Source of the DNA: Hyaloperonospora brassicae
Lineage: Eukaryota > Oomycota > Peronosporomycetes > Peronosporales > Peronosporaceae
NCBI GenBank assembly: GCA_947650285.1
Contig: CANTFL010000138.1
Coordinates: 248,001-312,000 of the forward strand
DNA: 64,000 nt
Direction: 5' to 3'
The notes beneath the pieces were generated by a model, which was given only the letters and a program-made list of their open reading frames with translations, was not told the origin of the DNA and did no database searches. Positions 267 through 64,000 of this stretch are shown in pieces (the stretch's first letter is position 1; the number at the start of each line of letters is the position of its first letter). The translations under genes and the position numbers were made by a program.

Positions 267-3200
267 TCAACCAGCAGCTCCAAAGCCTCCACCGCCGGGC
301 GTGTACAGCGTCAAGACCTCACCTGGCAGCACGTCCACCGTGTTCTTGCCGCCCAAGTTGACGGTGCGACCACCGTGACGTGAAAGCAAGTTCAGACCGC
401 GGGCGCCAGGTGCCCCACCTTCAAGACCGTAGGGCTGGAAAGCACGTCGCTCTGAAAGGATGCTCACAGTCATGGGCTCGAGGAACTCTAGCTGGCGCAC
501 CACACCGTTGCCGCCGCGAAACTTGCCAGCACCTCCTGACCCCTCACGAAGATGGAACGCACGAAGAAGCACGGGATATCGCTTCTCCAGGATCTCAGGA
601 TCCGTGATACGCGTGTTGGTCATGTGCGTGTGGATCCCGCTGCGGCCATTCCAAGATGGGCCGGCACCAGCACCACCAGCAATCGTCTCGTAGTAGCCAC
701 CCAATGTGGCGCTGCCAAACGTGAGGTTGTTCATGCAGCCCTGGGAAGCTGCGCACGCACCGAACGCCTTGAGGATCACATCGGTGATACGCTGGCTAGT
801 AAGCACGTTGCCCCCCACGACAGCAGCGCTGTTGCTTGGGTTCAGAATGCTGCTTTCGCTCGGGAAGCGCACTTCGATTGGCGCCAAGCAGCCTTGGTTC
901 AGCGGCAGATCTTCGCCAGGTAGCAAGCAGCGCAGGCAGTAGATGATAGCAGAGTAAGTTACTGCTGGAGGCGTGTTCACGTTGCCATAAACTTCTGGTC
1001 CGGTGCCACTGAAATCGAACACAGCCGAGTTCGAGCGGCGATCGATCGAGATCGTCAGCGCAATCTTCGTGCCATCGTCCATGAAGTCTTCCGCATACAC
1101 CACGCCAACTTCAGGCAGCTTCTTCTGCAGCGAAAACTCGTGCAGCATGTTCCGTACCGCGATCTCTGCAGCTTGCTGGATATAGTTCATGTAGGCGGTA
1201 ACAACTGGTAGCGAGTACTCGGCACAGAGCTCCTGCATCAGCATCACACCGCGTTGGTTGGCTGCCACTTGCGCGCGCAAGTCGGACAAATTGTCGCGCA
1301 GGTTGCGCGTGCCAATGCAAGGTCGGCCTTGATCATCTACACGTCCCTTTTGCAAAAGTATATCCGTGATCTCCTTCTCACGAAACTCACCGACCTTGCC
1401 TTCTACCAGCTTGAAAGCTACAATCGCTGCACCTTCTTCAGACAGCGTTTTCGACAACGGCGGCATCGACCCAGGCGAAATGCCACCGATGTCCGCGTGA
1501 TGTCCGCGACTGGCCACAAAGAACTCGATTCTGCCGCTCGTGTGGCTGAAAACAGGCGTAATGACTGTTATGTCTGGTAGGTGCGAACCTCCTGCGAGCT
1601 GCGGGTGGTTCGAGACCAGCACGTCTCCGTCATGAAGATCGTCACCCCAGTACTCGAGTTGGTATCGCACGGCTTGCTGCATAGCACCGAGATGAACAGG
1701 GAGATGCGGTGCATTCGCCACAAGTCCACCGTCGGGACCAAACAAGGCGCAAGAAAAATCCAGGCGCTCTTTGATGTTTACCGAGACTGACGTACGCGCC
1801 AGCGTACGGCCCATTTGCTCAGCAATACCCATGAAACGATGCGAGGATACCGAGAGCTGAATAGGGTCCAGCGGGACATCTTCGGAGCACAACGCGGGGC
1901 TGTCCTTCTTCGACCCTGCAGCCTCGGTATCGCTAACTAAGAAGAGATCACCACTTGGCGTAACTTCTACCTCCCATTCCGGCTCGACAACCACTGTGGC
2001 TGTGCCTTGCATGATGATCGCCGGTCCACTGTACCTGGCGCCACGGTTCTTGAGGAGCTCTTCATGCAGATAGACGGGAATCTGCTCCCACGTCTTCTTG
2101 CTTTCAAAGTAAAATGGCGTTGTCGACAGAAGCGAGCAGCGCTCGACAGCATCCACTGCGTTAGCAGCAGCTCCTACCGCAGGTTCCATCAACTCAGGCG
2201 ACACCGTCGCGCGTACGCGAATGTCGTCAACAAGAATGGCACGATTTTGCAGCACGAAACCAAACTCGCGCTGGTACATCTTCACGAAATTGCTATCGAA
2301 CTCGAATTCAGCAAGAGCGTTCGCAGTTACCGCAGGAGCTTCCCCTTTAGCACCCACTGGACCACGCGTCATGACAGCGTTGTCGGTACCGTCGTATCGC
2401 ATGTTGAGGAAGTACTGCATTTGCACATCTTCGGGCCGGAATCCATCAGCAACAAGCTCGCTGATAGCCTCGTTGGCAATCTTTGTTAGACTGCTGATCA
2501 AAATAGATTTCGTGTCAGCGCTATACTTTGCCGACGAGGGTAACTGCTTGTCCACGACGCTATCTGCAACACTCAAGCCATATGCTGAGAGGATACCGCT
2601 GTAACGGTGAATGTAGACCTTCGACATGCCCAGTGCCTTTGCAATCGAGCAAGCGTGCTGCGGTCCAGCACCTCCAAAACACGCAAGAACATGCGTGCTG
2701 ATGTCATAACCCTTGTTCTGCGTAAGGTTTCGAATAGGGCGACACATAGCTTCGTTGGCGACACGCAAAAATCCTGATGCCACCTCCTCCACGGTATACT
2801 TTGCTCTATTGGCGCCTGCCGATGCATTAATTTCCTTCGTCAGGCTCTCGAACGCTCGCTTCGACCCGGTCACATCCAGCGGTTCGTCTTCGTTGGGACC
2901 AAAGATTTTGGGGAAGTACTCCGGCAGAATACGCCCCGTGACGAGATTCGCGTCAGTAACACTGAGGTAACCGTTTTTTCGGTAGCACACTGGTCCCGGG
3001 TGCGCTCGCACAGACTCAGGGCCTACCAGAAAGAGTCCGTTCTTGTAAAACAAGCGCGAACCACCTCCAGCAGCCACTGTCTGGATGTCTAGTTGCGGTG
3101 CACGCACGGTAATATTGGCTGTCACGCTCTCGAGGACATGCTCAAATTTTCCGTCAAAGCGAGACACGTCTGTTGAGGTGCCGCCCATGTCAAACCCGAT

Positions 3201-4462
3201 AACTGCAGGCTGCACGGACAAAGCACCCGACTCGGGTGGCCGTGTCGTGCGAGCGTATCCCACTACACCACCGGCTGGACCCGACAGAATCGCTCGGTGT
3301 CCATGAAAATGCTTCATCCGCGCGAGTCCGCCATCACTCTGCATAAAGCTAATGTTCACGTGGTCCAACCCTTCGCCAAAGCCAGCACAAAACGACGCGA
3401 CATACTTCTTGATCACGGGCGTGAGGTAAGCGTCCGCGCAAGTCGTGAATCCACGCGGGACAGCTTTGATCATGGGCATGACCTCGGACGACAGCGAAAC
3501 TTGCGAGAACCCTAGTTTTAACGCAATCTCGCGGACCTTTTGTTCATGGCGTGGGAACGTGTACGAGTGCAGCAGCACAATCGCTACACTCTCCACCCCG
3601 TCATCACGAGCCGCCTGGAGCTTCGCGGTCAGGTCTTCGACATCCAATTCCTGAATCACACGAATGTATTCGCCGCTAATGCCCTGTTCATCGGTCGGCA
3701 GCCGCTCCTTTTCATTGTTCACAAGCTGCAGACGCTCGTCCACCTCGATCACCGAGTCATAAAGTGTCTGTCTCGACCCAGTCACACGACAAGCCCAAAC
3801 AGCACCAAAAACGACCATCATCAGGTGAGCAAGACAACCCACCCACCCGCCCACACACGCAACACCAACGCCCCACAACCAAACGCAAAAAAACAACGCC
3901 GCCGCAGTCACTACGACAACCCATGCAGCCGCATGACTCAACTCACGTCTGGCATGCGGATCTCCAAGTCAAAGATCCGCGGACGGGACTGGTTGCCAAT
4001 GTACAGCAGATCGTGGAACCCTTTGGTCGTCACGAGCACTGTGCGCTCGCCATTGCGCTCGAGCAGCGCGTTCGTCGCCACCGTTGTGCCCATCCGAATG
4101 CTCTGGATCCGAGACGTGTCCACGGGCTCGTTCCGCGGGTGCTGCACGCCCGTCGTGGCTTCCAGGACGCGGCGGATGCCCTCTCTAAACGCACATGAAC
4201 AACCACAGCACAGCCACCACAGCACGTGGTTTGATTACTTACGCACACAACCAGCTCCATAAATTACCCCTTCCCCCGCGTGAAGCTGACCGCCAATAAA
4301 ATACCGAGGAGCATCCGGATAATTCGCCGGATCTTCCGACAGCAGCTTGATGACCGTCGGACGCACGTCGATGACCGTCCCCTGTGCGTCGAGCACGTCC
4401 ATCTCTGCGTAGACATCGGTGAACGTACCGCCGCGATCGATGGCGAAGCGGAACACGCGCAT
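267..4462 (-). CDS. OPLAH: 5-oxoprolinase (ATP-hydrolysing), three exons
   Basis: Hydrolyses 5-oxo-L-proline to L-glutamate with ATP in the cytosolic gamma-glutamyl (glutathione) cycle. Exons by my reading: 4462-4305, 4184-3947, 3767-267. Introns are 120 bp (GTATTT...TTTAG) and 179 bp (GTGAGT...ACAG). The joined product is 1298 aa, against about 1290 in animals. The N-terminal hydantoinase-A-like part shows [12 protein letters not shown] at residues 5-16, LLSEDPANY and [14 protein letters not shown]. The central part has [15 protein letters not shown], and the C-terminal hydantoinase-B-like half has [28 protein letters not shown] and [14 protein letters not shown]. It ends in the family's glycine-rich tail (TPGGGGFG). 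The ATG at 4462 is chosen because it lies just before the first conserved motif. No break is seen, so it is probably functional. The splice sites are inferred from consensus and family alignment from memory. Confidence 0.95.
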
Positions 4463-18650: not shown

Positions 18651-18655
18651 TTACC
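18651..18655. repeat. Target-site duplication, left copy (TTACC)
   Basis: TTACC sits immediately left of the left LTR and is repeated exactly right of the right LTR at 26,663-26,667. The 5-bp size is normal for Ty3/gypsy integration and proves that the two LTRs bound one insertion. Confidence 0.92.
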
Positions 18656-19047
18656 TGTAACGGGGCACACCCTTGCGTGAACTTAACGCAAGGGTTTGGG
18701 TGCCCCGACAGACGTACACGAGGCAAACGAGGAAGCGTAGATAAGGGAAAAGTAAAACTGTTGTATTAATATAATTAAGTCTTTTTGTTACTGTCTATCT
18801 GTTTAACCTGACTTAATTTTGTTAATATAACTGAGTGTATGGTGACGTCTCGTCACCACTCATTGCGCGCGTCCTGCGGCGATTGGTGGGTTGATATCAT
18901 CACGATATCAACCAATGAGCAGACACTTTGGTCGCCTCACCAATATCACCACTATCGGTGATATTGTTCAAAGAATATTCAACTTAATATTCTTTATTGT
19001 CACTTTCTTAAAAGTGACACTTCCATGTAACGGGCTGCCCCGTTACA
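18656..19047 (-). repeat. Left (3') LTR of gypsy copy 1
   Basis: 392 bp, running from TGTAACGGGGCA to TGCCCCGTTACA, a perfect 12-bp terminal inverted repeat. It contains a chain of hairpins: 18669-18678/18686-18695, 18841-18847/18851-18857, 18890-18898/18904-18912, 18941-18950/18957-18966, 18971-18979/18986-18994, 18999-19006/19011-19018 and 19026-19034/19039-19047. Confidence 0.95.
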
Positions 19048-19060
19048 TCACCCCCTTAAC
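19048..19060 (-). other. Polypurine tract of gypsy copy 1
   Basis: Read on the minus strand this is GTTAAGGGGGTGA directly before the 3' LTR. It is the expected plus-strand primer for reverse transcription. The corresponding site of copy 2 (62,531-62,545) keeps the G-run, with two extra G. Confidence 0.75.
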
Positions 19061-19177
19061 TGATAGTCACTGTGTGACTATCGAAAATATGGTGGCCACC
19101 CGTTGGGCACCATTGGGACAGGGAGCACGTGTTGGGTCAGTTCCGTTCATAACTCAACCTGACCTCGCATAGTTAAC

Positions 19178-20781
19178 ATGTCTATGCGGGGTGACTCAAG
19201 GCACACAGAGTCTGTGCCTGTGCCAGCTTCTGCGGCAGAAGATTCGTCGTCTGATGCTCGTTCTTCGCCTGCAGCAAGAGGTGCTGCAGGTGCACGCGGT
19301 AGAGCACCGCGTGCGCATGATGACCCCGACATTGAGGTCATCTACTCTGGCGAGTCAGACGTGTCTGACTCGGGCAATGCTGCAGAGGCGTCTCGCTCAC
19401 CAGCGACGCCTCAGCGTTCGCCAAGGCCACTACCGAACGAACGGACTCGTGAGTTGCAACACAGTCTGTTCGGCAGTGATGACGAATCTGATGATGAGTA
19501 TGTTTGCTCATCACCGCGATCAGCTCGTGCTCCTTCGCACGAGCGACTTGACGATGGTGCAAGCCATCGTCATGCTGACAACCGTGGTACCGACAAGGGT
19601 ACCACTGTGAAGCGTGATGAGCTGAAGCCGTGGCGTTTGCCTGAACGGCTCATCAATGGCTTGTCTCACGAGACAAGCCAACACCATCGAATACCCTTAT
19701 TTGATGCGACTGAGCTTCACGGCTTGGATCCCAGCGCGAGCAACTTTCGCGCTGAGGAAGACTTTTATCTCGATGTCTTCTTAGACGTCGATGGTACAAC
19801 AGCAACCAAAAGCGTGACAAGGCCTCGCTTTTGGATGCGTGGAACGCGTTCGTCCAAAACGTAAAGAATTTTGGACGAGAAGGGTGGCTTAAGAAAGTTG
19901 AGGCAGTACGCCTCAGGTTCGAAAAGCGAACGCCAACCGGTGCCAGGTACCGGTTGCATCGTTTATCAAGTGAGGCCGGCATTCCATGCCTCACTTGGGG
20001 AGATCCTTGTGCGAGTTGTGCTGACAACTCGCAACGTGCACAGAAGGATGTGTATTCCCTCTATTCGCCCTGGGGAAGGGCACACATATCGGCTAAGATG
20101 CGTGACGCGATTGCAAACTTGCAATCCATCTACAAGCGCCTAGGGCGCGTGTTTACCGATGGTCCCTCGGACCAATTGGATGAGTCTCGTCATACTGGCG
20201 GACGAGACCTTCAACATCCATCAACAGCTGAGAGCGGGGCTCCCAGCTGTTCCAAGAGGGTGGATACCCCCGCCACTGGACGAGGTAGCTCGTCCTTGAT
20301 CCTGAATCGTCACGGTGGTTCAAGATACGCTCCACTAGGAAGCGTTGACCACCGTGAGAATCCTCCAAAGGATGTGGTGGAGGAGGAAAGACCTCCTCCA
20401 GAACCCCAGGCCCACCATCTCGACCCTTACGAGATGGATCGCGCAATCGATGAATTGCGCGATGCCTTGAAGCACGAGCGCGACCGGCGCTACGCTTTGA
20501 CTGATACCGTGCGGAAGAACCGCAAGGATCTCGAGGCTGATCGGGCGAGAGACCGCGCCGATTACGCCACAGCGCAGCTTCAGGTCGAGCGGGATGTCCG
20601 CTCCCTTTCCGGCGAGCTGGCGACAGCTCGCGGGGAGATATCTCGGTTGAGTTCCGAGGTATCCTATCTGCGCGACCATACGGATCGTCTGAAGCGCGAA
20701 CGCAAGAACTTGATGGATGCTCTTGAACGTGGGGGCTATCTTCATCGGAAGAAGAAGGCTCCTACCGGCAGTACGGTCTGA
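19178..20781 (+). pseudogene. Antisense ORF of the gypsy element (about 534 codons, one frameshift)
   Basis: It starts at ATG 19,178 and is read opposite to gag-pol. The first part (19,178-19,864) has a Ser/Ala- and Asp/Glu-rich low-complexity start and then a conserved-looking block (KPWRLPERLINGL, FDATELHGL). One base is missing near 19,779-19,782 relative to copy 2 (CTTCTTAG against CTTCCTTAG), and the frame continues at 19,831-20,781. The second part has a basic helical block (GREGWLKKVEAVRLRFEKRTP), a Cys-rich patch (PCLTWGDPCASCADN) and a C-terminal coiled coil of about 110 residues with heptad-like Arg/Glu/Leu spacing. Function unknown. The Cys patch and coiled coil suggest a structural or nucleic-acid-binding protein. 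No similarity to Gag, Env or integrase is evident. The promoter might be the adjacent LTR acting inward, which is inference. The last 629 bp are also pol on the other strand. Confidence 0.75.
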
Positions 20782-23700
20782 GTCGCCCCACGTAAAACGT
20801 AGGATGCGCACGCATCCCACGTGGCAATATGATCGTGTATGCATTGCCCTTGCGATGCAACACTCGAAATGGCCCAATGTATTTCAGCAGTAGTTTACTA
20901 CTGCCGACACTAGTGACTGCATGTCCAGGTAAGTTTACCGTAGACAGTAGTACTAGGTCGCTAACTTTAAATGAAAGAACATTTGCTCTTCCATTCTTGT
21001 CTGCGTTCCGTTTCTGGCGGTCCACGGCATTTGCGATGGCGTCCTGAACGAAACGGACTACCGCCTCTCGAGTCAGCAGGAAGTTCTCTGCTGACTCGTT
21101 GTTTTGTCTTTCAGTGCGATTCGTGCGCACTGCTAAGAGATTGCTCTCTTCTTCTGCGAGGTTGTCTTCTTCCTCACTGGCATAATCGTTGACGATGCTG
21201 AATATACCAGCATCGTCATCATCATCCGAGTCAGTAATAGCGTTGTCGCTATTATTGCGGTGGTGTGCTTCATCGATGTCGACTTGATCGACATCGGCAT
21301 CATACGTGACGACGTTAGCGTCGACACGTGATGAGCAAGAGCCAATACGGTTTTTGCTCGAGATAGTCCCTCCTCCCCTTATCCAAGAGTCACACTCTAG
21401 AAGGGCGGGCAAACGTGGATGGCGTAATGAATTCACGTAAAACGGTGTGTGCTGTGTTGAAGCATGCACCGAATTATTGATGGCGAGTTCCACCATTGGA
21501 AGGAATTCGCTCCAACTCGAAAACGAATGGACATATCCTCGATGGATCTCTTCGAGGATACGGTTCGCACGTTCCGTCTGACCATCTGTTTCCGGATGGC
21601 CAGAAGTAGACATCTTCAATCGTGTTCCGAGAGAACGGAACACGGTTTGCCAAAATGCCGCCGTGAACCGAGGGTCACGGTCGGATACGAGTTCACGGGG
21701 CAACCCGTGGAGTCGGAAGATCATGTCAAGAAAGACACGAGCACAGCCGGGTGCCGTGATGGACTCGGGCACTGCAGCAAGATGCACCATCTTGCTGAAC
21801 CGATTAACCAACACAAGAATACCTTATTATTGTGAGCGTCTTCGGGAAAACCGAAGACGAAGTCCATTGAAACGGACTGCCAGCACTCTGCCGGGACCGG
21901 TAGAGGCTGTAATGGTGCTCGGGATGAAGGACTAGGCTTCGCCCATTAACAAACCTCGCAAGCACGTATGTACTTGCGTACAAACTGATACTGGCGTGGC
22001 CAGTAAAAGTCACGACTGACCGTGAGGTAAGTCTTTTCTCTCCCACGATGACCATCTGTTGGGGCATCGTGACACTTGTACATGATGCGCAAACGCAAAT
22101 CATGATGAGCGGGTACGACGACACGAGGCGTGTCGTCGGCAACAGCTGTATAGTACAGCAATCCGTTGCGTGTACTATACCGATCCGATGAGGATCGGTA
22201 CAAAGCCGGTAAATCCCTCATGGATTTACTAGATGAATTCACCAGATGATCCATAAATCGCAGAAGATCCTTATGTTCCGCGTATGCCTTTCGTACGTCG
22301 TCAAGTAAACTTGACGACGGGACACTGACTGACAGTGTCGCAACAGTGGGCTTATCCTCACTGTTGAATTGTGCGTCCGGCTCGAAATCGGGCCGGCGCG
22401 AAAGAGCATCCGCGACGACATTGAGTCGTCCCGGTTTATACTCCACGGAGAAGTTGTACTCCGCGAAGAAAGACAGCCACCTCGCCATTCTTTGCGAGAG
22501 GTGTGGGCTGTTTACGGCCGTGCGTAATGACGCATGGTCCGTATAGACAACAAACGGTCTATCTCTCAAGAGATAGACGCGAAAATTATCCAGTGCGTAC
22601 TTCATGGCAAGGAGTTCCTTGTCATGCACTGGGTAATTACTATCAGCTGCTTGCAGCTGACGCGACTGATAACAGATGACGCGCTCCGCGCCATCTGCGT
22701 CGAACTGCATAAACGCACAGCCGATCGCAAAATCGCTGGCGTCACAGACCACATAAAAAGGTCTGTCCTGATCTGCAATCGCCAAGATCGACGACTGCAT
22801 CAAGCTCCGCTTAATACCTTCAAAGGAACGCTGGCACTCAGCGTTCCATGACCACTTGACATTTTTCTTGTGTAAACAAGAAAGATGTACCGTCATCTCG
22901 GCGTAGTTGCGAGAGTACTTATGCAAGTACGCCGCTAGTCCAAGGAACTTCCTTAGTCCCTTGACATCGACTGGCACTGGCCAGTCGGTGATCGCCTTGA
23001 TCTTTTTCGGGATCAGGGCGTACGCCGTGTTTACCCACGATGCACCCAAGAAGTGGTATATCGCTGGCCGCGAATATACACTTCTTGAGGTTGGCGTACA
23101 ACGTATGCTTGCGCATGAGTTGAAGGACTTGACGAACGTGAGTTCTGGGAACTTCAACGTCCGTCTTTCCGTCCATAGCCCGGCTATGGACGAACACATC
23201 GTCGAAGTAACTCGGTGCGAAGTCTCGCACCGGTCTCAACAGATTTGTTACACATCTGTTGAATGTTGCAGGGGCATTACTCAGCCCCTGTGGCATCACT
23301 AGCCACTTCCACAGCATACCGCTTGGGGTGCTCACTGCCGTGTACGGCATGTCCCGTTCACGCATGAGGATCTGATAGAATCCATCCATCAGATCCATGG
23401 ATGAAAAGATGGTACTCTTTGACATACCATCTATGATTACGTCCTTCCTCGGTATCGGCGTCTGATCCGGTACTGCTGCAGCATTCAACTTGTTGAATGC
23501 GTGCACTATCCGCCATCCTCCTGTGGCCTTTCGTACACAGAAGGTCGAAGAGCTGTGAGGGAATGTTGATTCCTCACATGGCCCGCTGCTAAGCTATCGG
23601 CAATGAACTTGTCGATCGCTATCACTTGTTCACGAGGCAGTGGCCACTGCTTCATGACACAATACTTCGAGCCCGGTTTGAGCTCGATCTCGTGTCGAGT

Positions 23701-24993
23701 GCCTTTGTCCTTAGGCAACGTAAGGTACGGATTCAGGGAACACATCCCTGAATTCGATCAGATCCTTGTACAAAGGATTTGCCTGAAGTGACTCCCAGGA
23801 TTGAGACGTGTATCGCTCAATCCGAGTCCTCTCATCGAGGACACTTTCGTCCATCGATGAGCTGCTGAGAACCCGTTCGTTCTCAGAAAATACTGTTGCC
23901 GACCGAATATCGGCCACATACTCATCCTCTGTGACGAGTATGCAGATCTGCTTGACTTTGCCACTACGCAGATCACGCAAGAACCGTTTCGGTTCTAGCG
24001 TTGGCAACTGAGTTATCTCCGAAGTCAACTTCGGAGGCACAATCAGATCAAGCGTATAAGCGCCTACGCTTGATACGTCATTAACCAAGACGTTCAACGT
24101 CTCAGTTACTTCCTGGGAACTTGCTTCCACAGGTTGCTGAGGGCCTAATCCCTCAGCAAGCGACTCTTGAGGAATTCCTTCCTCAAGTACGTGGGGACTT
24201 ATTCCCTCGACGTCTTCCGACTGTGGCTGTGCAACCACAGTCAGGAACCGATCCTCTACGGTCGACTCTCCAGTCGACCTAGGATTTTCATGTTGCCCCT
24301 TGGGGCAACAGACTTCTTTCTTCTAAGATGCTGCCCGCTAGGCATGCATCCATGTCCCGGTCCACTCGACTTATTCGAGTGGTGGACCTTCGGCGCAGCC
24401 TGTACTTCTGTACAGCCGCCGGGAGCTTGCTCCACAGTGTAGTGATCAACTACACTGTGATCTTGTGCAGTCGTGCTAACGACCGTACCGCAAGTGAGGC
24501 CATCGCACTCACTCGCAGAACATCCACACGCTTGTGGACGCTCCAAGATGTTCATCAGATGGCCATCTGATGAACAAGCGGCAGGCATCTTCACGGATCG
24601 ATGCTGCCAGCTCACCCTTGGCTCGTATTTTCTGAGCCAAGGTAATCCCAGGATGACATCAAATTCGTCATCCAGATCCAGTACGATGAAGTCATCATCG
24701 TAATGTTCGCCCTCCAACGTGTAGTGGATTCCTACTACACGTTTCTTAACGGTTATCGATGCGCCTGTTGCAAGGCGCACCGTCATCCTCGTGAGGGGAA
24801 TGTCGCGCTCAACGAACTTGAGCCTACGACCCTCTAGTGACTGGCGACGAACAAAGTTTTTCGACGCCCCACAGTCTACTAGGGCACGAAGCGACAAATC
24901 ATTTGTCGCTTCCAACTTCAAGGTGATGAGCAAAACGTCATCACCAGGTGCAGAGACACACAATGATTGTGTATCTGGAGCAACTTTCGTCAA
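20153..24993 (-). pseudogene. pol: gypsy pol: protease, RT, RNase H, integrase, chromodomain (broken)
   Basis: Pieces in order: protease with DCGAS at about 24,876; a Glu/Ser-rich linker; RT with the YFDD active site at 23,198-23,209 and MPQGLSNAPATF; RNase H with CDASDFAIG and KELLA; integrase zinc finger (HDAPTDGHRG...CEVC, about 22,090-21,950); integrase core (MLVNRFSK, GHPETDGQTERANR); an acidic insertion (about 21,110-21,330); a GPF-type module (YIGPFRVL...HPTFYVGRLRPY); and a chromodomain (RFLVERIL...YLVQWRGY...NSWEP, 20,180-20,344), ending at TAA 20,153-20,155. Breaks: frameshifts near 24,240, 23,740-23,500 and 23,200; a stop after the zinc finger and a one-base loss near 21,825; and an in-frame TAG at 20,762-20,764 just before the chromodomain tail. 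Non-functional as it stands. Confidence 0.9.
24551..24574. repeat. 24-bp perfect palindrome in pol
   Basis: The half-site TTCATCAGATGG is followed immediately by its exact reverse complement, with no spacer. It is one of the many inverted repeats that fill this element and the longest uninterrupted one I checked. It lies in the protease-RT linker coding region. Confidence 0.9.
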
Positions 24994-25043
24994 GAGATTT
25001 GCAAATTCTCTTGAGGTTGCTGGATCAGTAGGGCGCTCCGCCC

Positions 25044-26226
25044 CTACTGACCCCGACCATTTTTTGATGGTCTGTTTTGCTGTTGCGGCTTCGCAACAGC
25101 GCTGGACCCACGCCCGTTGCCCTTCTTGGCGAATGGTCGTCCATTTCGCTCAGTACTGTTTGGTACTGGGCGTGGAGCGCTACACTCATGTGCGAAGTGC
25201 CCTAACTTCTGACAGCGATTGCACCTCAGCAATCGCTTGTTGTTTGAAGAGCGAGGTCTCTCGCTCTCAACATAGCAGAGGTCCATTGGTTCTGGACCTC
25301 CGATCTCTTGTCGTCTCGGTGGACGATAAGAGTTTGAGCTAGCATGAGCCTGTCTCATGCTAAAGTCTTCCTGTTCCGCGGCTGATATCGCATCTTCCAG
25401 TGTATTCAGCTCAAGGCGGAACAGGTGGCTCTTGATGGGCCCTTCTGCGAGCCCTTGCATGAACATCGTAATCAACGTGTGTTCATGACTGGGTTAGCAA
25501 TTATACTACTCGCGAGGAGTCGTAAATGTTGAGCGTAAGCGTGCACATCATGCTTACCCTGCTTGAGTTTCAAGCAGGGTCTGAACGACACGCGCTGAGT
25601 CCAGGCTCTGAACGAGCTCTGAGCTCAGCGCGTGGCGGCTCAAATGTTTGTCTGAGCCGGGCCTTGAAGTCATCTAGCGACCTAAATTTATTTGGGTCGC
25701 TACTCTCGAGGCCCAGGGACCAAGTTTTGGCACGTCCTGCCAAGTGGGTTTGAGCAAATGTGAGTTTCATTTGCTCATCTTCGACGCGACGAGCCCTTAG
25801 GACTCTGTCGAGTTCGACAAACCATTGTAACAGGGAGTCCTCCGGGACTCCACTACACTTGGAGATGTCAACCTTCATGACCTCGGGACGACGCGCATGT
25901 GCCGTCCCGCCCACAGCAGCATGGAATTGCTGCTGTCTCAACAGCTATGTCTGTTGAGCACCGAGTTCTCTCAACTGCTCCGCCTGTTGAGAGCCTTGCT
26001 GGTGAAGCAAGGCTACTTTTTCCCTTTCGGCGACAATTTCACTTTGGATGAACTTGGCTATAGCGGCATGTTGTTGGTCTCTGTCTAGAGACTCCAACAT
26101 GGCGCTAATGGCGAACTCGCCTACGGTAGAACTCATTCGTTCTACCGCACTCCATTCGATGTCACTCAAATGAATAAACCCTTCACGCGTGGCTTGAAAG
26201 GTTTCTTCATCATCCAACATGTTCAT
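25044..26226 (-). pseudogene. gag: gypsy gag with a CCHC zinc knuckle (broken)
   Basis: The likely start is ATG at 26,226 just inside the 5' LTR (a second in-frame ATG is two codons later). The frame is interrupted near 25,945 and again between 25,570 and 25,475. The N-terminal part is acidic and helical. The middle has the usual Gag layout with LLQWFVELDRVLRARR and a WSLGLESSD segment (Trp-rich capsid-like). The C-terminal part ends in a CX2CX4HX4C knuckle (CNRCQKLGHFAHEC, 25,182-25,223) followed by a basic Arg/Gly tail. The protein would coat and package the element RNA. It is broken by frameshifts in this copy. The order and knuckle make the identification safe even though capsid similarity is only general. 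Confidence 0.82.
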
Positions 26227-26255
26227 GTTGGATGCTGTGGTCCTTGGAAGTACTA

Positions 26256-26268
26256 CAAAGCGATACCA
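26256..26268 (-). other. Primer-binding site of gypsy copy 1
   Basis: On the minus strand, two bases after the 5' LTR, the sequence TGGTATCGCTTTG begins with the TGG expected for pairing to a tRNA CCA end. The first seven bases match the common initiator-Met PBS (TGGTATC), the rest does not, so the primer tRNA is uncertain. Confidence 0.6.
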
Positions 26269-26270
26269 GG

Positions 26271-26662
26271 TGTAACGGGGCACACCCTTGCGTGAACTTA
26301 ACGCAAGGGTGTCGGTGCCCCGACAGACGTACACAAGGCAAACGAGGAGGCGTAGGTAGGGTAAAAGCAGAACTGTTTTATTAATATAATTAAGTCTTTT
26401 TGTTACTGTCTATCTGTTTAACCTGACTTAATTTTGTTAATATAACTGAGTGTATGGTGACGTCTCGTCACCACTCATTGCGCGCGTCCTGCGGCGATTG
26501 GTGGGTTGATATCATCACGATATCAACCAATGATCAGACACTTTGGTCGCCTCACCAATATCACCACTATCGGTGATATTGTTCAACGAATATTCAACTT
26601 AATATTCTTTATTGTCACTTTCTTAAAAGTGACACTTCCATGTAACGGGCTGCCCCGTTACA
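26271..26662 (-). repeat. Right (5') LTR of gypsy copy 1
   Basis: 392 bp, the same ends and hairpin chain as the left LTR, with about 12 substitutions and no indel. The differences cluster within the first 110 bp, while the hairpin-rich 3' half is almost unchanged. Confidence 0.95.
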
Positions 26663-26667
26663 TTACC
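26663..26667. repeat. Target-site duplication, right copy (TTACC)
   Basis: Exact repeat of 18,651-18,655 on the outer side of the right LTR. Confidence 0.92.
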
Positions 26668-52083: not shown

Positions 52084-55000
52084 ATGAGCGAGCGCGTCGA
52101 CCCTTTGGACCGAACGGATGCAGCGCAGAGCGAAGCGTCGCCCCCCGCGTCCGAAGTCAGTACATCGTCCGTTAAGGTGAAGAGCACGAGGAAGAAGTGG
52201 AAGGTCAAGCAGCAGCAGAAGGGGAGGGGGAAGACGGAGCAGGTGGTAGACGCCCAAGCAGCAGTTGGCGACGACGTGCTCGACGGCAGTGTGGATGCAT
52301 TTGATGGCGCGGGGTTCGTTATGGTGAATCTGCGGAATGAGGTCGAGGAGATGGCGGTTGTGGCTACGGACGAAGGGTTTGCGAGTGTTCGAGTCGTTGA
52401 CGTCGATCAGAAGGAGGAGGAGAAGGAGGAGGAGGAGAAGAAGAAGAAGGCGAAGGAGGGAGAAAAGCAGGTGAAGCGACGGAATATGAGGAAGAAAACG
52501 AAGAAGAAGAAGAAAGAGGAGAAGGCATTGATAGAAGAGGGAGTGGTTCAGGAGATGTCGAAGGATGCAGGGGAGGAGAAGGTGACGGAGAAGAAGAAGA
52601 AGAAACCGAAGAAGAAGAAAGAGGTGAAGACAGTGAAAGAAGAGGAAGTTGCTGGGGCGTTGTCGAAGGATGTAGGGGAGGAGAAGGCAGTGAAAAAAGA
52701 TGACGTGACTGGGGCATTGCCGAAGGATGCAGGGAAGGAGAAGGCGACGGATAAGAAGAAGAAAAAACCGAAGAAGAAGAATGAGAAGAAGACAGTGAAA
52801 GAAGAGGACGTGAAAGAGGCGTTGTCGAAGGATGTAGGGGAGGAGAAGGCAGTGAAGGAAGAGGACGTGAATGGGGCGTTGCCGAAGGATGCGGGGGAGG
52901 AGAAGGTTGCGGAGAAGAAGAAGAGGAGGAAGAAAAACAAGAGGGAGATGAAACCGACGCAGCAGTTGCTCGAGACGGTGGAAAGTGCTGGAGTGGAGAA
53001 AGTTTTGGTGGTGGGAGACGAGAAGAAAAAGAAGCACAAGTTGAAGAAGAAAGCTGTTGCTAGAAAAGTATCTCTAGGCAGCAGGGATGTTGAAGAGAAA
53101 CAAGAGGTGACGACAAGTCGTGCTGAAGACGAAATGAATGCAACTGATGTTGTTGCGAAGAACAACAAGGAAAGAGTGGAACACGCGACTCAGCAGGTGC
53201 AGCAAGTGGAAGGGGACAAAGTTTCGTCATTGCAAAACGAAAGCGGAACGAGTAAGAAGTTGAACGTCAAAGCGCGAAAAAATGCTCGTGAGCATGGTCC
53301 AGTGACTTATACGGAATATCTAGACCACGACGTGGTGATTCGAGGATTGGAGATGGGTAGCTTGTTTCAAGGCAAGCTACGCGTGAACCCGATGTACCGC
53401 ATGGACGGATACGTCACGGTGGACGGATTGTCGGTGGATATACTCATCAAGGGAATGGAAGATCGCAATCGAGCATTCGACGGTGATTTAGTAGCTGTTC
53501 GATTGCATCCGGAATCCGCATGGAAATCTCTGAACGACGATCGCGGTAGGAAAGCAGCATCAGAGCCCATGTCTTCGACTGCCGGGGTGGACCAGCGTGC
53601 ATTGCACTCGCTGTGGCTCCCTAATGTGCAGGTCGATCAGTGCTTCCCGGCACGCACGCCAGAGGATGAAGTCTCTGTCGACATGTTGAAACAGACGATG
53701 ACCCGCCTAAATGAGCACGTGATCGAAGCTCGCAAACGTCCGGTAGCGACTGTGGTTTTTGTCCTAGCTCAAGGCAATGCAAACGGTTTCGTTGGATCTC
53801 TGGAAGCGAAAACCAAAGTAAAAGACTTGAGCTCACCGTTGCCAAGCGATGACAACTACGCGTACTTCAACGCCGACGACCCCCGTCTACCTCGACGCAT
53901 TCGGATTCCGAGGCTGCAACTTCCTGACGAGTTTGTCAGCCGCCCTTTGCTGTATTCAAATGCGATGCTCTGCTGCTGCCGAATCAAAGCGTGGTCGACT
54001 AAACATCAGAGTCCAACGGGTGAGTTTGTCAAAACGGTCGGAGAGTACACAGGGATCGAAACTGGCATATCGGCAATCTTGTTCAAGCACGGCTTGCAAG
54101 CGCACACAGCGGATTTCGACAGCTCGATCTTGAACGAGTTGGACGAAAAATATGGCGCAAGCGGTGAAAAATGGGAGATACCGAGCGAAGAGCTTCAGAA
54201 CCGACGAGACTTCCGCGACACGCAAATCTTCAGCATCGACCCATACAATGCGCGCGATTTAGACGACGCATTGCACATTCGTGTCCTTGACGATGCCCGC
54301 ACTAAATTTGAGATTGGCGTCCACATTGCAGATGTGACCCACTTCATCGAGCACAACTCACTACTGGATCGTGAAGCCCGATCACGAGCCACTAGCGTGT
54401 ATCTGGCCAACCGTGTGCTTCCGATGCTGCCTCGCATATTGTGCGAGAAGCTGTGTTCGCTTCAGCCGCAGGTAGATCGACTAGCGTTTTCAGTCGTGTG
54501 GCAGATGAACTTGGACGGTACGCTTGTTGACGGTGTCGATCCGTGGTTCGGAAAGTCTGTCATCCGCTCATGCTGCAAGCTCGACTACGGCTCAGCGCAA
54601 AAGATGCTTGATGGAGCTATCACCGAAAAGCATGTGGACGAGTGGGAAGAGGACCGACGTCCAATTGCCGATGCAAATCCCAACATCACTGCAGCCACAG
54701 TGATCCAGAGCGTCAAAGATTTGTGGAGCATTGGCGAAAACCGTCGCGCGATGCGTTTCGAGACAGGTGCAGTGAGTTTGAACGACGTGAAACTTGTTTT
54801 CTCGCTGGATGCAAAGGGAAACCCCACTCGGTACGGATCGTATGAGCTGAAGGACAGCAACCGGTTAGTGGAGGAGTACATGCTGCTAGCAAATTACCTC
54901 GTTGCTCAGCAATTGCTTCGTGCGCACGGTCCGCTAGCGTTCTTGCGTCATCACCCGCCGCCAGTCTCGCGGTCACTGGATCAGACGCTAGAGCGACTAG

Positions 55001-62138: not shown

Positions 62139-62530
62139 TGTAACGGGGCACACCTTTGCGTGAACTTAACACAAGGGTATCGGTGCCCCGACAGACGTAC
62201 ACAAGGCAAGCGAGGAAGCGTAGGGAGGGTAAAAGCAGAACTGTTTTATTAATATTATTAAGTCTTTTAACTACTGTCTCTTTGTTTGACTTAACTTAAT
62301 TATGCTAATATAACTGAGTGTATGGTGACGTCTCGTCACCACTCATTGCGCGCGTCTTGCGGCGATTGGTGGGTTGATATCATCAAGATATCAACCCATG
62401 AACAGACTCTTTGGTCGACCCTTCAATATCACCACTTCGGTGATATTGTTTAAAGAATATTCAACTTCATATTCTTTATTGTCACTTTCTCTTAAAGTGA
62501 CAATTCCATGTAACGGGCTGCCCCGTTACA
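62139..62530 (-). repeat. 3' LTR of gypsy copy 2
   Basis: 392 bp with the same TGTAACGGGGCA/TGCCCCGTTACA ends. Differs from copy 1 at more positions than the copy-1 LTRs differ from each other. The hairpins remain: for example CACC-ACTATC-GGTG became CACC-ACTTC-GGTG, and the CACTTT/AAAGTG stem is kept while the loop changes. Confidence 0.93.
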
Positions 62531-62662
62531 TCACCCCCCCTTAACTGATAGTCACCGTGTGACTATCGAAAATAATGGCGGCCACCCGTTGGTCACCATT
62601 GGGACAGGGAGCACTTGTTGGGTCCGTTCCATTCACTTTCCGCTCGACCTCGCATAGTCAAC

Positions 62663-64000
62663 ATGTCTATGCGGGGTGACTCAAGGCACACAGTGTCTGT
62701 GCTTGTGCCAGCTTCTGCGGCAGACGATTCTTCGTCTGCTGCTCGTTCTTCGCCTGCAGCAAGAGGTGCTGCAGGTGCACGCGGTACAGCACTGCGTGCG
62801 CATGATGACCCCGACATTGAGGTCATCTACTCTGGCGAGTCAGACGTGTCTGACTCGGGCAATGCTGCAGAGGCGTCTCGCTCACCGGCGACGCCTCAGT
62901 TTTCGCCAAGGCCACTACCGAACGAACGGACTCGTGAGTTGCAACACAGTCTGTTCGGCAGTGATGACGAATCTGGTGATGAGTATGTTTGCTCATCACC
63001 GCAATCAGCTCGTGCTCCTTCGCACGAGCGACTTGACGATGGTGCAACCCATCGTCATACTGACAACCGTGGTACCAACAAAGGTACCACTGTGAAGCGT
63101 GATGAGCTGAAGCCGTGGCGTTTGCCTGAACGGCTCATCAATGGATTGTCTCACGAGACAAGCCAACACCATCGAATACCCTTATTCGATGCGACTGAGC
63201 TTCACGGCTTGACTCCCAGCGCGAGCAACTTTCGCGCTGAAGAAGGTTTTTATCTCGATGTCTTCCTTAGACATCGATGGTACAACAGCAACCAAAAGCG
63301 TGACAAAGCCTCGCTTTTGGCTGCGTGAAACGCGTTCGTCCAAAACAAAAAAAATCTGGACGAGAAGGGTGGCTCAAGAAACTTGAGGCGACACGCCTCA
63401 GGTTCGAAAAGCGAACGCCAACCGGTGCCAGGTACCAGTTGCACTGTTTGTCGAGTGAGGAAGGCATTCCTTGCATCACATGGGGAGACCCTTGTGCGAG
63501 TTGTGTTGACAACTCGCAGCGTGCACATAGGGACGTGTATTCCCTAAGTTCGCCCTGGGGAGGGCACATCTCTCGGAGGAGATGCGTGACGCGATTGCAA
63601 ACTTTCAATCCGTCTACAAGCGCCTAGGGCGCGTGTTTACCGATGGGCCCGAGGACTCATCGGATGGGTCTCGTCATAATAACGGACAAGACCTTCAACA
63701 TCCATCAACAGCTGAGAGCGGGGCTCTTAGCTGTTTCAAGAGGGTGGATACCCCCGCCACTGGACGAGGTAGCTCGTCCTTGATCCTGAATCTTCACGGT
63801 GATTCAAGAAACACTCCACTAGGAAGCGTTGATCACCGTGAGCATCCACCAAAGGATGTGGTGGAGGAGGAAAGACCTCCTCCAGATGATTCGGTTCACC
63901 ATCTCGACCCTTACGAGATGGATCGCGCAATCGATGAATTGCGCGATGACTTGAAGCACGAGCGCGACCGGCGCTACGCTTTGACTGGTACCGTGCGGAA
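62663..64000 (+). pseudogene. Antisense ORF of gypsy copy 2 (partial, broken)
   Basis: ATG 62,663 corresponds to ATG 19,178 of copy 1. The first 222 codons are open, including the place where copy 1 lost a base. A TGA at 63,326-63,328 (a Trp codon in copy 1's second frame) and two single-base losses, near 63,345-63,355 and near 63,560, break it. From about 63,565 to the window end the frame is open again (about 145 codons), through the region where the opposite strand codes for the chromodomain. The breaks differ from those of copy 1, so both derive from an intact ORF of about 534 codons. Product unknown; features as in copy 1. Confidence 0.7.
63637..64000 (-). pseudogene. pol: pol tail with chromodomain, gypsy copy 2 (broken)
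   Basis: The minus-strand frame runs from the window edge through RDPSRKGRDG, EEVFPPPPHPL, QRFLVE and SYLVQWRGYPPS, then meets TGA (63,736-63,738) and TAA (63,727-63,729). These replace the two Trp of the WNSWEP block of copy 1. The chromodomain is therefore truncated before its last aromatic residues and helix. Confidence 0.85.

Follow-up and report, generated by a model that had tools for sequence, protein, structure and literature searches.

Some RNA viruses carry genome-scale ordered RNA structure (GORS), which runs along the whole coding genome. Short-loop inverted repeats with perfect arms are also produced by quasipalindrome, or template-switch, mutation: as excerpted, PMC8794818 reports that template switching in RNA genes creates and repairs hairpin stems, and that transitions make up 61.0% of instantaneous compensations in rRNA. 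The small RNAs described in the oomycete Phytophthora infestans include sizes of 21 and 25/26 nt, and small RNAs map, in either orientation, all along two Gypsy elements (PMC3522703, in excerpt). Among the titles and abstract openings listed for our searches of the open-access PMC literature, none described a gypsy element saturated with hairpins.

The window analysed here is a stretch of 64,000 nucleotides of the Hyaloperonospora brassicae genome. It contains an element that is like oomycete Ty3/gypsy retrotransposons in its long terminal repeats (LTRs), its 5-bp target-site duplication, its order of protease, reverse transcriptase (RT), RNase H and integrase, and its Tf2-1-like SH3 part. The element is also like viral genomes with GORS in that structure runs along the whole coding genome, partly at synonymous sites, but unlike them it has short Watson-Crick arms, no G-U preference and strands that fold equally. 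It shares short-loop inverted repeats and perfect arms with the template switches described in the excerpts of PMC8794818; those lie in RNA genes, whereas the window element is saturated over its whole length and its stems evolve slowly. The features are as follows.

18651 to 18655, no strand, left target-site duplication TTACC
18656 to 26662, minus strand, Ty3/gypsy-type LTR retrotransposon with pol on the minus strand and 109 perfect hairpins (arm at least 7, loop at most 10)
18656 to about 19047-19052, minus strand, 3′ LTR (pol sense) with seven hairpins
19048 to 19057, minus strand, G-rich polypurine-tract-like stretch adjoining the 3′ LTR
19178 to 20781, plus strand, antisense open reading frame (ORF) region, which the window copy has as two pieces (228 and 316 aa) that overlap
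20762 to 21814, minus strand, integrase core and Tf2-1-like SH3 part (SH3_Tf2-1, E 7.7e-11; rve, E 3.9e-7)
21946 to 23199, minus strand, RNase H and integrase zinc-binding part (RT_RNaseH, E 1.2e-31; Integrase_H2C2, E 4.3e-16)
22557 to 22578, no strand, example hairpin in RNase H codons (10-bp arms, loop of 2)
22919 to 23506, minus strand, reverse transcriptase part (Pfam RVT_1, E 1.6e-22)
24256 to 24993, minus strand, aspartic protease part of pol (Pfam RVP_2, E 2.2e-9)
24433 to 24459, no strand, example hairpin in the pol region (11-bp arms, loop of 5)
26260 to 26268, minus strand, primer-binding-site-like TGGTATCGC adjoining the 5′ LTR
26271 to 26662, minus strand, 5′ LTR (pol sense) with seven hairpins at places matching those of the other LTR
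26663 to 26667, no strand, right target-site duplication TTACC
62139 to 64000, minus strand, another copy of this family (91.7% identity to 18656-20516), truncated where the window stops, with 25 hairpins

The target-site duplications and the primer-binding-site-like and polypurine-tract-like stretches were assigned from the sequence. The 5-bp duplication TTACC abuts the element ends at 18656 and 26662 exactly, the two LTRs are 96.7-96.9% identical, and TGGTATCGC at 26260 to 26268 is a candidate primer-binding site with a putative resemblance to the initiator-Met tRNA. The Pfam matches on the minus strand follow the order protease, RT, RNase H and integrase, with the rve match falling just below its Pfam cut-off (30.7 bits vs 32.6). 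The presumed gag region contained 21 stops in the single stretch and frame taken. For the RNase H-integrase piece, the best among the 120 of 1354 matches listed was a Peronospora effusa protein (80% identity, with 85% of the query covered); among the same 120, identity was 67% to Bremia lactucae and about 60% to Phytophthora, which fits a downy-mildew-like oomycete host. One protein query each of the genome-contig and viral-contig collections yielded no DNA relatives of the element.

The antisense ORF sits between pol and the 3′ LTR, and in the genomic copy L082 (530-2131) it is free of stops over at least 534 codons and continues past the fetched piece. It had 12 database protein matches, two of them labelled Peronospora matthiolae, with 87% identity over 54% of the query for the best match and 42-48% over 93-96% for three others; no Pfam family scored above its cut-off. 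Elsewhere in the window, an open frame of 1224 aa at 267-3941 on the minus strand has hydantoinase A and B / oxoprolinase domains, and the segment 52001-54000 has strong GC and AT skew (0.31 and 0.30), with internal repeats at 52416-52952 within a long ORF.

An earlier note on this DNA had claimed that the element is saturated with short hairpins, seven of them in a row in the LTR, at a density that it had not seen in the host genes of the window. Counting hairpins as non-overlapping perfect inverted repeats (arm at least 7, loop 0-10), we found that all 10 of the hairpins quoted were exact in position, that the LTR run of seven was borne out (18656-19052), and that the element at 18656-26662 held 109 hairpins vs 5.2 ± 2.4 in 10 dinucleotide shuffles, an excess of about 20-fold. 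For arms of at least 9, the count was 57 vs 0.2 in the same number of shuffles. Five long ORFs outside the element had 0.7-2.0 hairpins per kb vs 13.6 in the element; the window outside both copies contained 47 hairpins (0.87 per kb), compared to 13.6 and 13.4 per kb inside them, and the flanks of the element had 2 in about 1 kb on the left and 2 in about 1.5 kb on the right. A codon-shuffled control, proposed in the same note, gave the same answer: a 1339-codon open pol frame contained 68 hairpins vs 3.4 ± 2.0 in 20 synonymous shuffles. Thirty genomic copies, taken as five-kb pieces, had 13.0-16.8 hairpins per kb, and their shuffles 0.2-1.1. The hairpin saturation of the element is real, and this claim is confirmed.

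The arm lengths peaked at 8-10 bp (16, 15 and 14 hairpins, respectively, vs at most 0.55 in shuffles, for loops of 3-10), the loops were mostly of 2-10 bases, and the commonest hairpin span was 23 nt. The excess lay mainly at loops of up to about 13 bases, was mild up to about 40 and disappeared past 50. Perfect arms accounted for 29.5% of bases, and the hairpins, as estimated from gap lengths, spanned some 40% of the sequence. The GC content was 53% in arms and 41% in loops, relative to 51.6% overall; arm length was unrelated to arm GC (rho -0.06), and 11 four-base loops included 2 of the GNRA type and 0 of the UNCG type. Spacing was no more regular than random in 4 of 4 segments, and therefore there is no sign of even spacing for coverage. 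Because placement is uneven and coverage is about 40%, any protection given by the hairpins would be partial. We do not claim a fixed hairpin span: the variance of span was below that of permuted loops, yet a variance lowered in this way would also result from bases that pair by chance at the edge of the loop.

Hairpins in the phase that pairs third codon positions with each other were scarce (11 vs 29 and 29 in the other phases), whereas chance hairpins in codon-shuffled sequence showed little bias among the same classes (138 vs 154 and 163). Therefore, the hairpins were formed under protein constraint, by use of synonymous freedom. Amino acid conservation relative to sister families was slightly lower in codons lying only in stems than in other codons (0.466 vs 0.569, 0.498 vs 0.571 and 0.595 vs 0.634).

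The distribution of the trait in the genome was evaluated by the same count. The close copies L051-L058, whose aligned parts are 89.7-93.8% identical to the window element (for L056, only 1237 of 2001 bases aligned), had 7-15 hairpins per kb. The three sister gypsy families, about 65% identical in nucleotide sequence, had 7.3 (L059), 3.3 (L062) and 1.0 (L060) per kb, and five RT-bearing loci of other kinds (L061 and L063-L066) had 0-1.0. The RT-bearing loci L060, L061, L063 and L064 are, at 0-1.0 per kb, unlike the window gypsy element of the same genome. The values for 11 further RT pieces were 11.1-15.5 in the window family (6 pieces), 3.3 and 4.4 in the L062 family (2), 0 in the L060 family (2) and 1.1 in a single L063-like piece. 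All of the 20 copia-type loci fell in the range of 0.3-2.4 per kb, and four 4-kb stretches picked regardless of content had 1.2-2.8, the highest of which includes an LTR of the family. A property of the whole genome, or of retroelements in general, is therefore ruled out as far as copia loci, other RT loci and arbitrary stretches were sampled, and because the sister families are weaker and the other loci near nil, the saturation is a trait of one lineage that is fainter in its relatives. Hairpin positions common to the L016 and L059 families were no more numerous than expected from the margins (95 coincided vs about 103 expected); of the L062 hairpins listed, 3 of 8 coincided with hairpins of L059.

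Two minor observations were made on these loci. The copia-type loci L032-L035, which have 1.6-2.4 hairpins per kb and in each case 3-4 arms of 9 or longer, were slightly above their shuffles. Locus L060, although without a hairpin excess (1.0 per kb), folded mildly better than shuffles on either strand (z -2.1 and -2.7).

The rate of stem evolution was quantified by defining stems in an outgroup copy and counting changes between two other copies, in well-aligned columns only. Rates taken directly between two copies carry a bias, since every stem is necessarily perfect in whichever copy was used to define it; a bias also arises when the defining copy shares an internal branch with one of the pair. 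We therefore relied on the outgroup-defined tests. With stems defined in L083, the comparison of L082 with the window copy gave 30 changes at 552 stem sites and 175 at 1501 other sites (circular-shift fraction 0.0004), and with stems defined in L052, L016 and L017 differed at 2 of 480 stem sites and 34 of 1521 other sites (0.004). Ten comparisons, which overlap in copies and are not independent, covered pol and the 3′ part; in nine of them the stem/other ratio was 0.13-0.54 and the circular-shift fraction did not exceed 0.021. No significant slowing was found between L016 and the decayed copy L053 (ratio 0.73, circular-shift fraction 0.14).

The slowing was also present at third codon positions: in one comparison (stems defined in L023, L016 vs L017), there were 3 changes at 360 stem sites, 35 at 876 sites outside and 11 at 103 loop sites (p = 0.002), and all seven overlapping comparisons of this kind gave p < 0.04. 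Fourfold sites were slowed in the same direction in 6 of 6 comparisons (p 0.01-0.08), and loops showed no slowing. The LTR alone was less uniform: seven outgroup-defined comparisons gave ratios of 0-0.67, with circular-shift fractions below 0.05 in four and no significance in three, and an earlier LTR test had been significant in four of six cases (all four L082 vs L083) and not in the other two. The comparison of L082 with L083 using winB-defined stems gave 7 changes at 102 stem sites vs 51 at 214 sites outside (p 1.6e-4).

The slow stems look like purifying selection on pairing, acting in the replicating lineage. Polymorphism among 30 copies did not add to this: the contrast of shared with private variants (27:89 in stems vs 111:292 outside) was not significant (p = 0.40), and private variants in stems fell below the prediction from context (89 vs 125.6). 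This deficit counts against the selection reading, since private variants should be mostly neutral and post-insertion. The earlier note had offered selection for structure as one possible cause, and this part of it stood insofar as stems are slow, also at third codon positions, although less uniformly in the LTR.

Folding energies were evaluated on both strands, as the earlier note had proposed, in windows of 250 nt with 20 shuffles each. The mean z over 18 windows of L016 pol was -8.68 in the sense and -8.83 in the antisense orientation, far beyond shuffles; L082 (8 windows) gave -7.88 and -8.66, the window copy -6.84 and -6.46, and two host stretches were near 0 (-0.16/-0.39 and -0.56/0.08). 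A single 900-nt fold leaned the contrary way (z -22.1 in sense and -15.0 in antisense), and we prefer the windowed values because they cover more sequence. The mismatches next to the perfect arms likewise showed no preference for G-U over A-C on the sense strand. In four pooled segments, one of them from L059, there were 23 G-U and 23 A-C among 142 positions just outside the arms, 14 and 15 among 84 at the loop edge, and 4 and 9 among 22 interior single mismatches; the pooled count for flanking and interior positions was 41 vs 47. Stem variants in the 30 copies were G-U in 39 cases and A-C in 37. An A-C mismatch in the pol sense is a G-T on the minus strand. These results show that the hairpin signal is strand-symmetric and reflects Watson-Crick pairing, not the stability of a sense-RNA fold.

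We propose that the whole length of this gypsy lineage, including the LTRs, pol and the antisense-ORF region, may have been remodelled into a selected array of short perfect hairpins that acts on both strands, and we give this reading a probability of about 0.45. The hairpins probably do something for the element, and the importance of pairing on the two strands would come from a reader that sees both of them, or the DNA. The preferred candidate for the reader is host RNA silencing, a step that taken alone we regard as rather doubtful. Cleavage of a hairpin from either strand would release a small RNA, about 21-26 nt long, that folds on itself and meets a folded target. As the commonest hairpin span is 23 nt, small RNAs of such sizes would be self-complementary from either strand; the match of this span to the small-RNA sizes is suggestive only. 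Stems of about 9 bp are expected to be poor substrates for Dicer. A strand-symmetric hairpin armour, placed in synonymous sites, might thus blunt silencing by way of self-complementary small RNAs, folded targets and stems too short for dicing, although in this full form the proposal is somewhat improbable. Template switching during copying may supply new hairpins to such an array.

If the selection signal holds, a mobile element bears a structural code on top of the one for its proteins, some 30% of its bases being in perfect arms, and it would offer a natural system for studying how nucleic-acid structure arises under coding constraint. It would also raise the question of whether transposons can evade silencing through their shape, without a suppressor protein. 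A more general caution is that a transcript with a folding signal is not necessarily the target of selection itself; in the present case, the signal is found on both strands.

Selection could instead act on the single-stranded minus-strand cDNA or on duplex DNA, where hairpins would guard the intermediate or pace second-strand synthesis. The strand symmetry and strict Watson-Crick pairing agree with this, as does the excess of A-C over G-U (12 to 4, p = 0.08) among stem variants present in at least 5 of 30 copies. This lean is weak, however, and is reversed in private variants (27 G-U and 16 A-C), and we know of no DNA-level reader of scattered 9-bp hairpins. We consider selection at the DNA level to be unlikely.

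A third possibility is selection for a folded sense RNA genome, for packaging, compaction or protection from RNase, as in viruses with ordered RNA structure. Such selection is in keeping with the slow stems and with folding energies beyond those of shuffles, as in GORS (the mean z of about -8.7 in the 18 windows of L016 pol), and the AT-rich loops (41% GC) are what ordinary structure selection would also give; the 900-nt stretch favours it too. The compact sense-RNA fold suggested in the earlier note nevertheless fits poorly, because G-U is not favoured (23:23 at outer, 14:15 at inner and 4:9 at interior positions) and both strands fold equally well. The two other marks of GORS, tolerance of G-U over A-C in the sense strand and better folding of the sense than of the antisense strand, were not found, nor was arm length tied to arm GC, and the four-base loops were mostly of neither the GNRA nor the UNCG type. 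This explanation is improbable.

According to the last of the mechanisms, which the earlier note had also raised, mutation alone is responsible: on meeting an imperfect inverted repeat, the RT (or host replication) changes template, one arm is copied from the other, and perfect hairpins accumulate without benefit. The perfect Watson-Crick arms, the excess mainly at loops of up to about 13, the strand symmetry and the spacing that is not even all fit, and template switching is reported to make and mend hairpin stems (PMC8794818, in excerpt). Mutation alone, however, predicts that pairs drift at the neutral rate, whereas in nine of the ten comparisons the rate in stems was 0.13-0.54 times that elsewhere. 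It also predicts many compensated pairs. Between L082 and L083, 28 of 35 hairpins were kept, and the 249 pairs in the kept hairpins included 16 one-sided changes, 8 compensated changes and 2 two-sided changes without pairing; in the LTR, which is under no known protein constraint, none of the 6 changed pairs of the winB-defined stems was compensated. The compensated pairs were transitions in 8 of 8 cases, and in 5 of 6 in the reverse direction, vs 61.0% for rRNA in the excerpts of PMC8794818. The stem differences between L016 and L017 were of one or two bases per hairpin, distant copies showed a few adjacent double changes, and no multi-base hairpin gain could be pinned down. Under this mechanism, some of the slowing in coding regions, though not that of the LTR, could be mimicked by protein constraint, since a copied change has to be acceptable in both codons. 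Template switching is still a good candidate for making the hairpins, but it does not explain the slow stems; as the sole cause, we think it quite unlikely. Chance, composition and codon use are ruled out as the cause by the dinucleotide and codon shuffles.

The LTRs showed some variation in hairpin content among copies. The LTR subfamily of L089 has an extra hairpin, missing from the window LTRs, that has 91 genome matches at up to 2 mismatches; it is therefore an established variant and is uninformative on origin. At the 5′ end of the LTR, the outer sequence is similar in L083 and L082, the interior hairpin is wholly different, and L083 has other perfect hairpins. In this region, the hairpin content turns over and the hairpin character remains.
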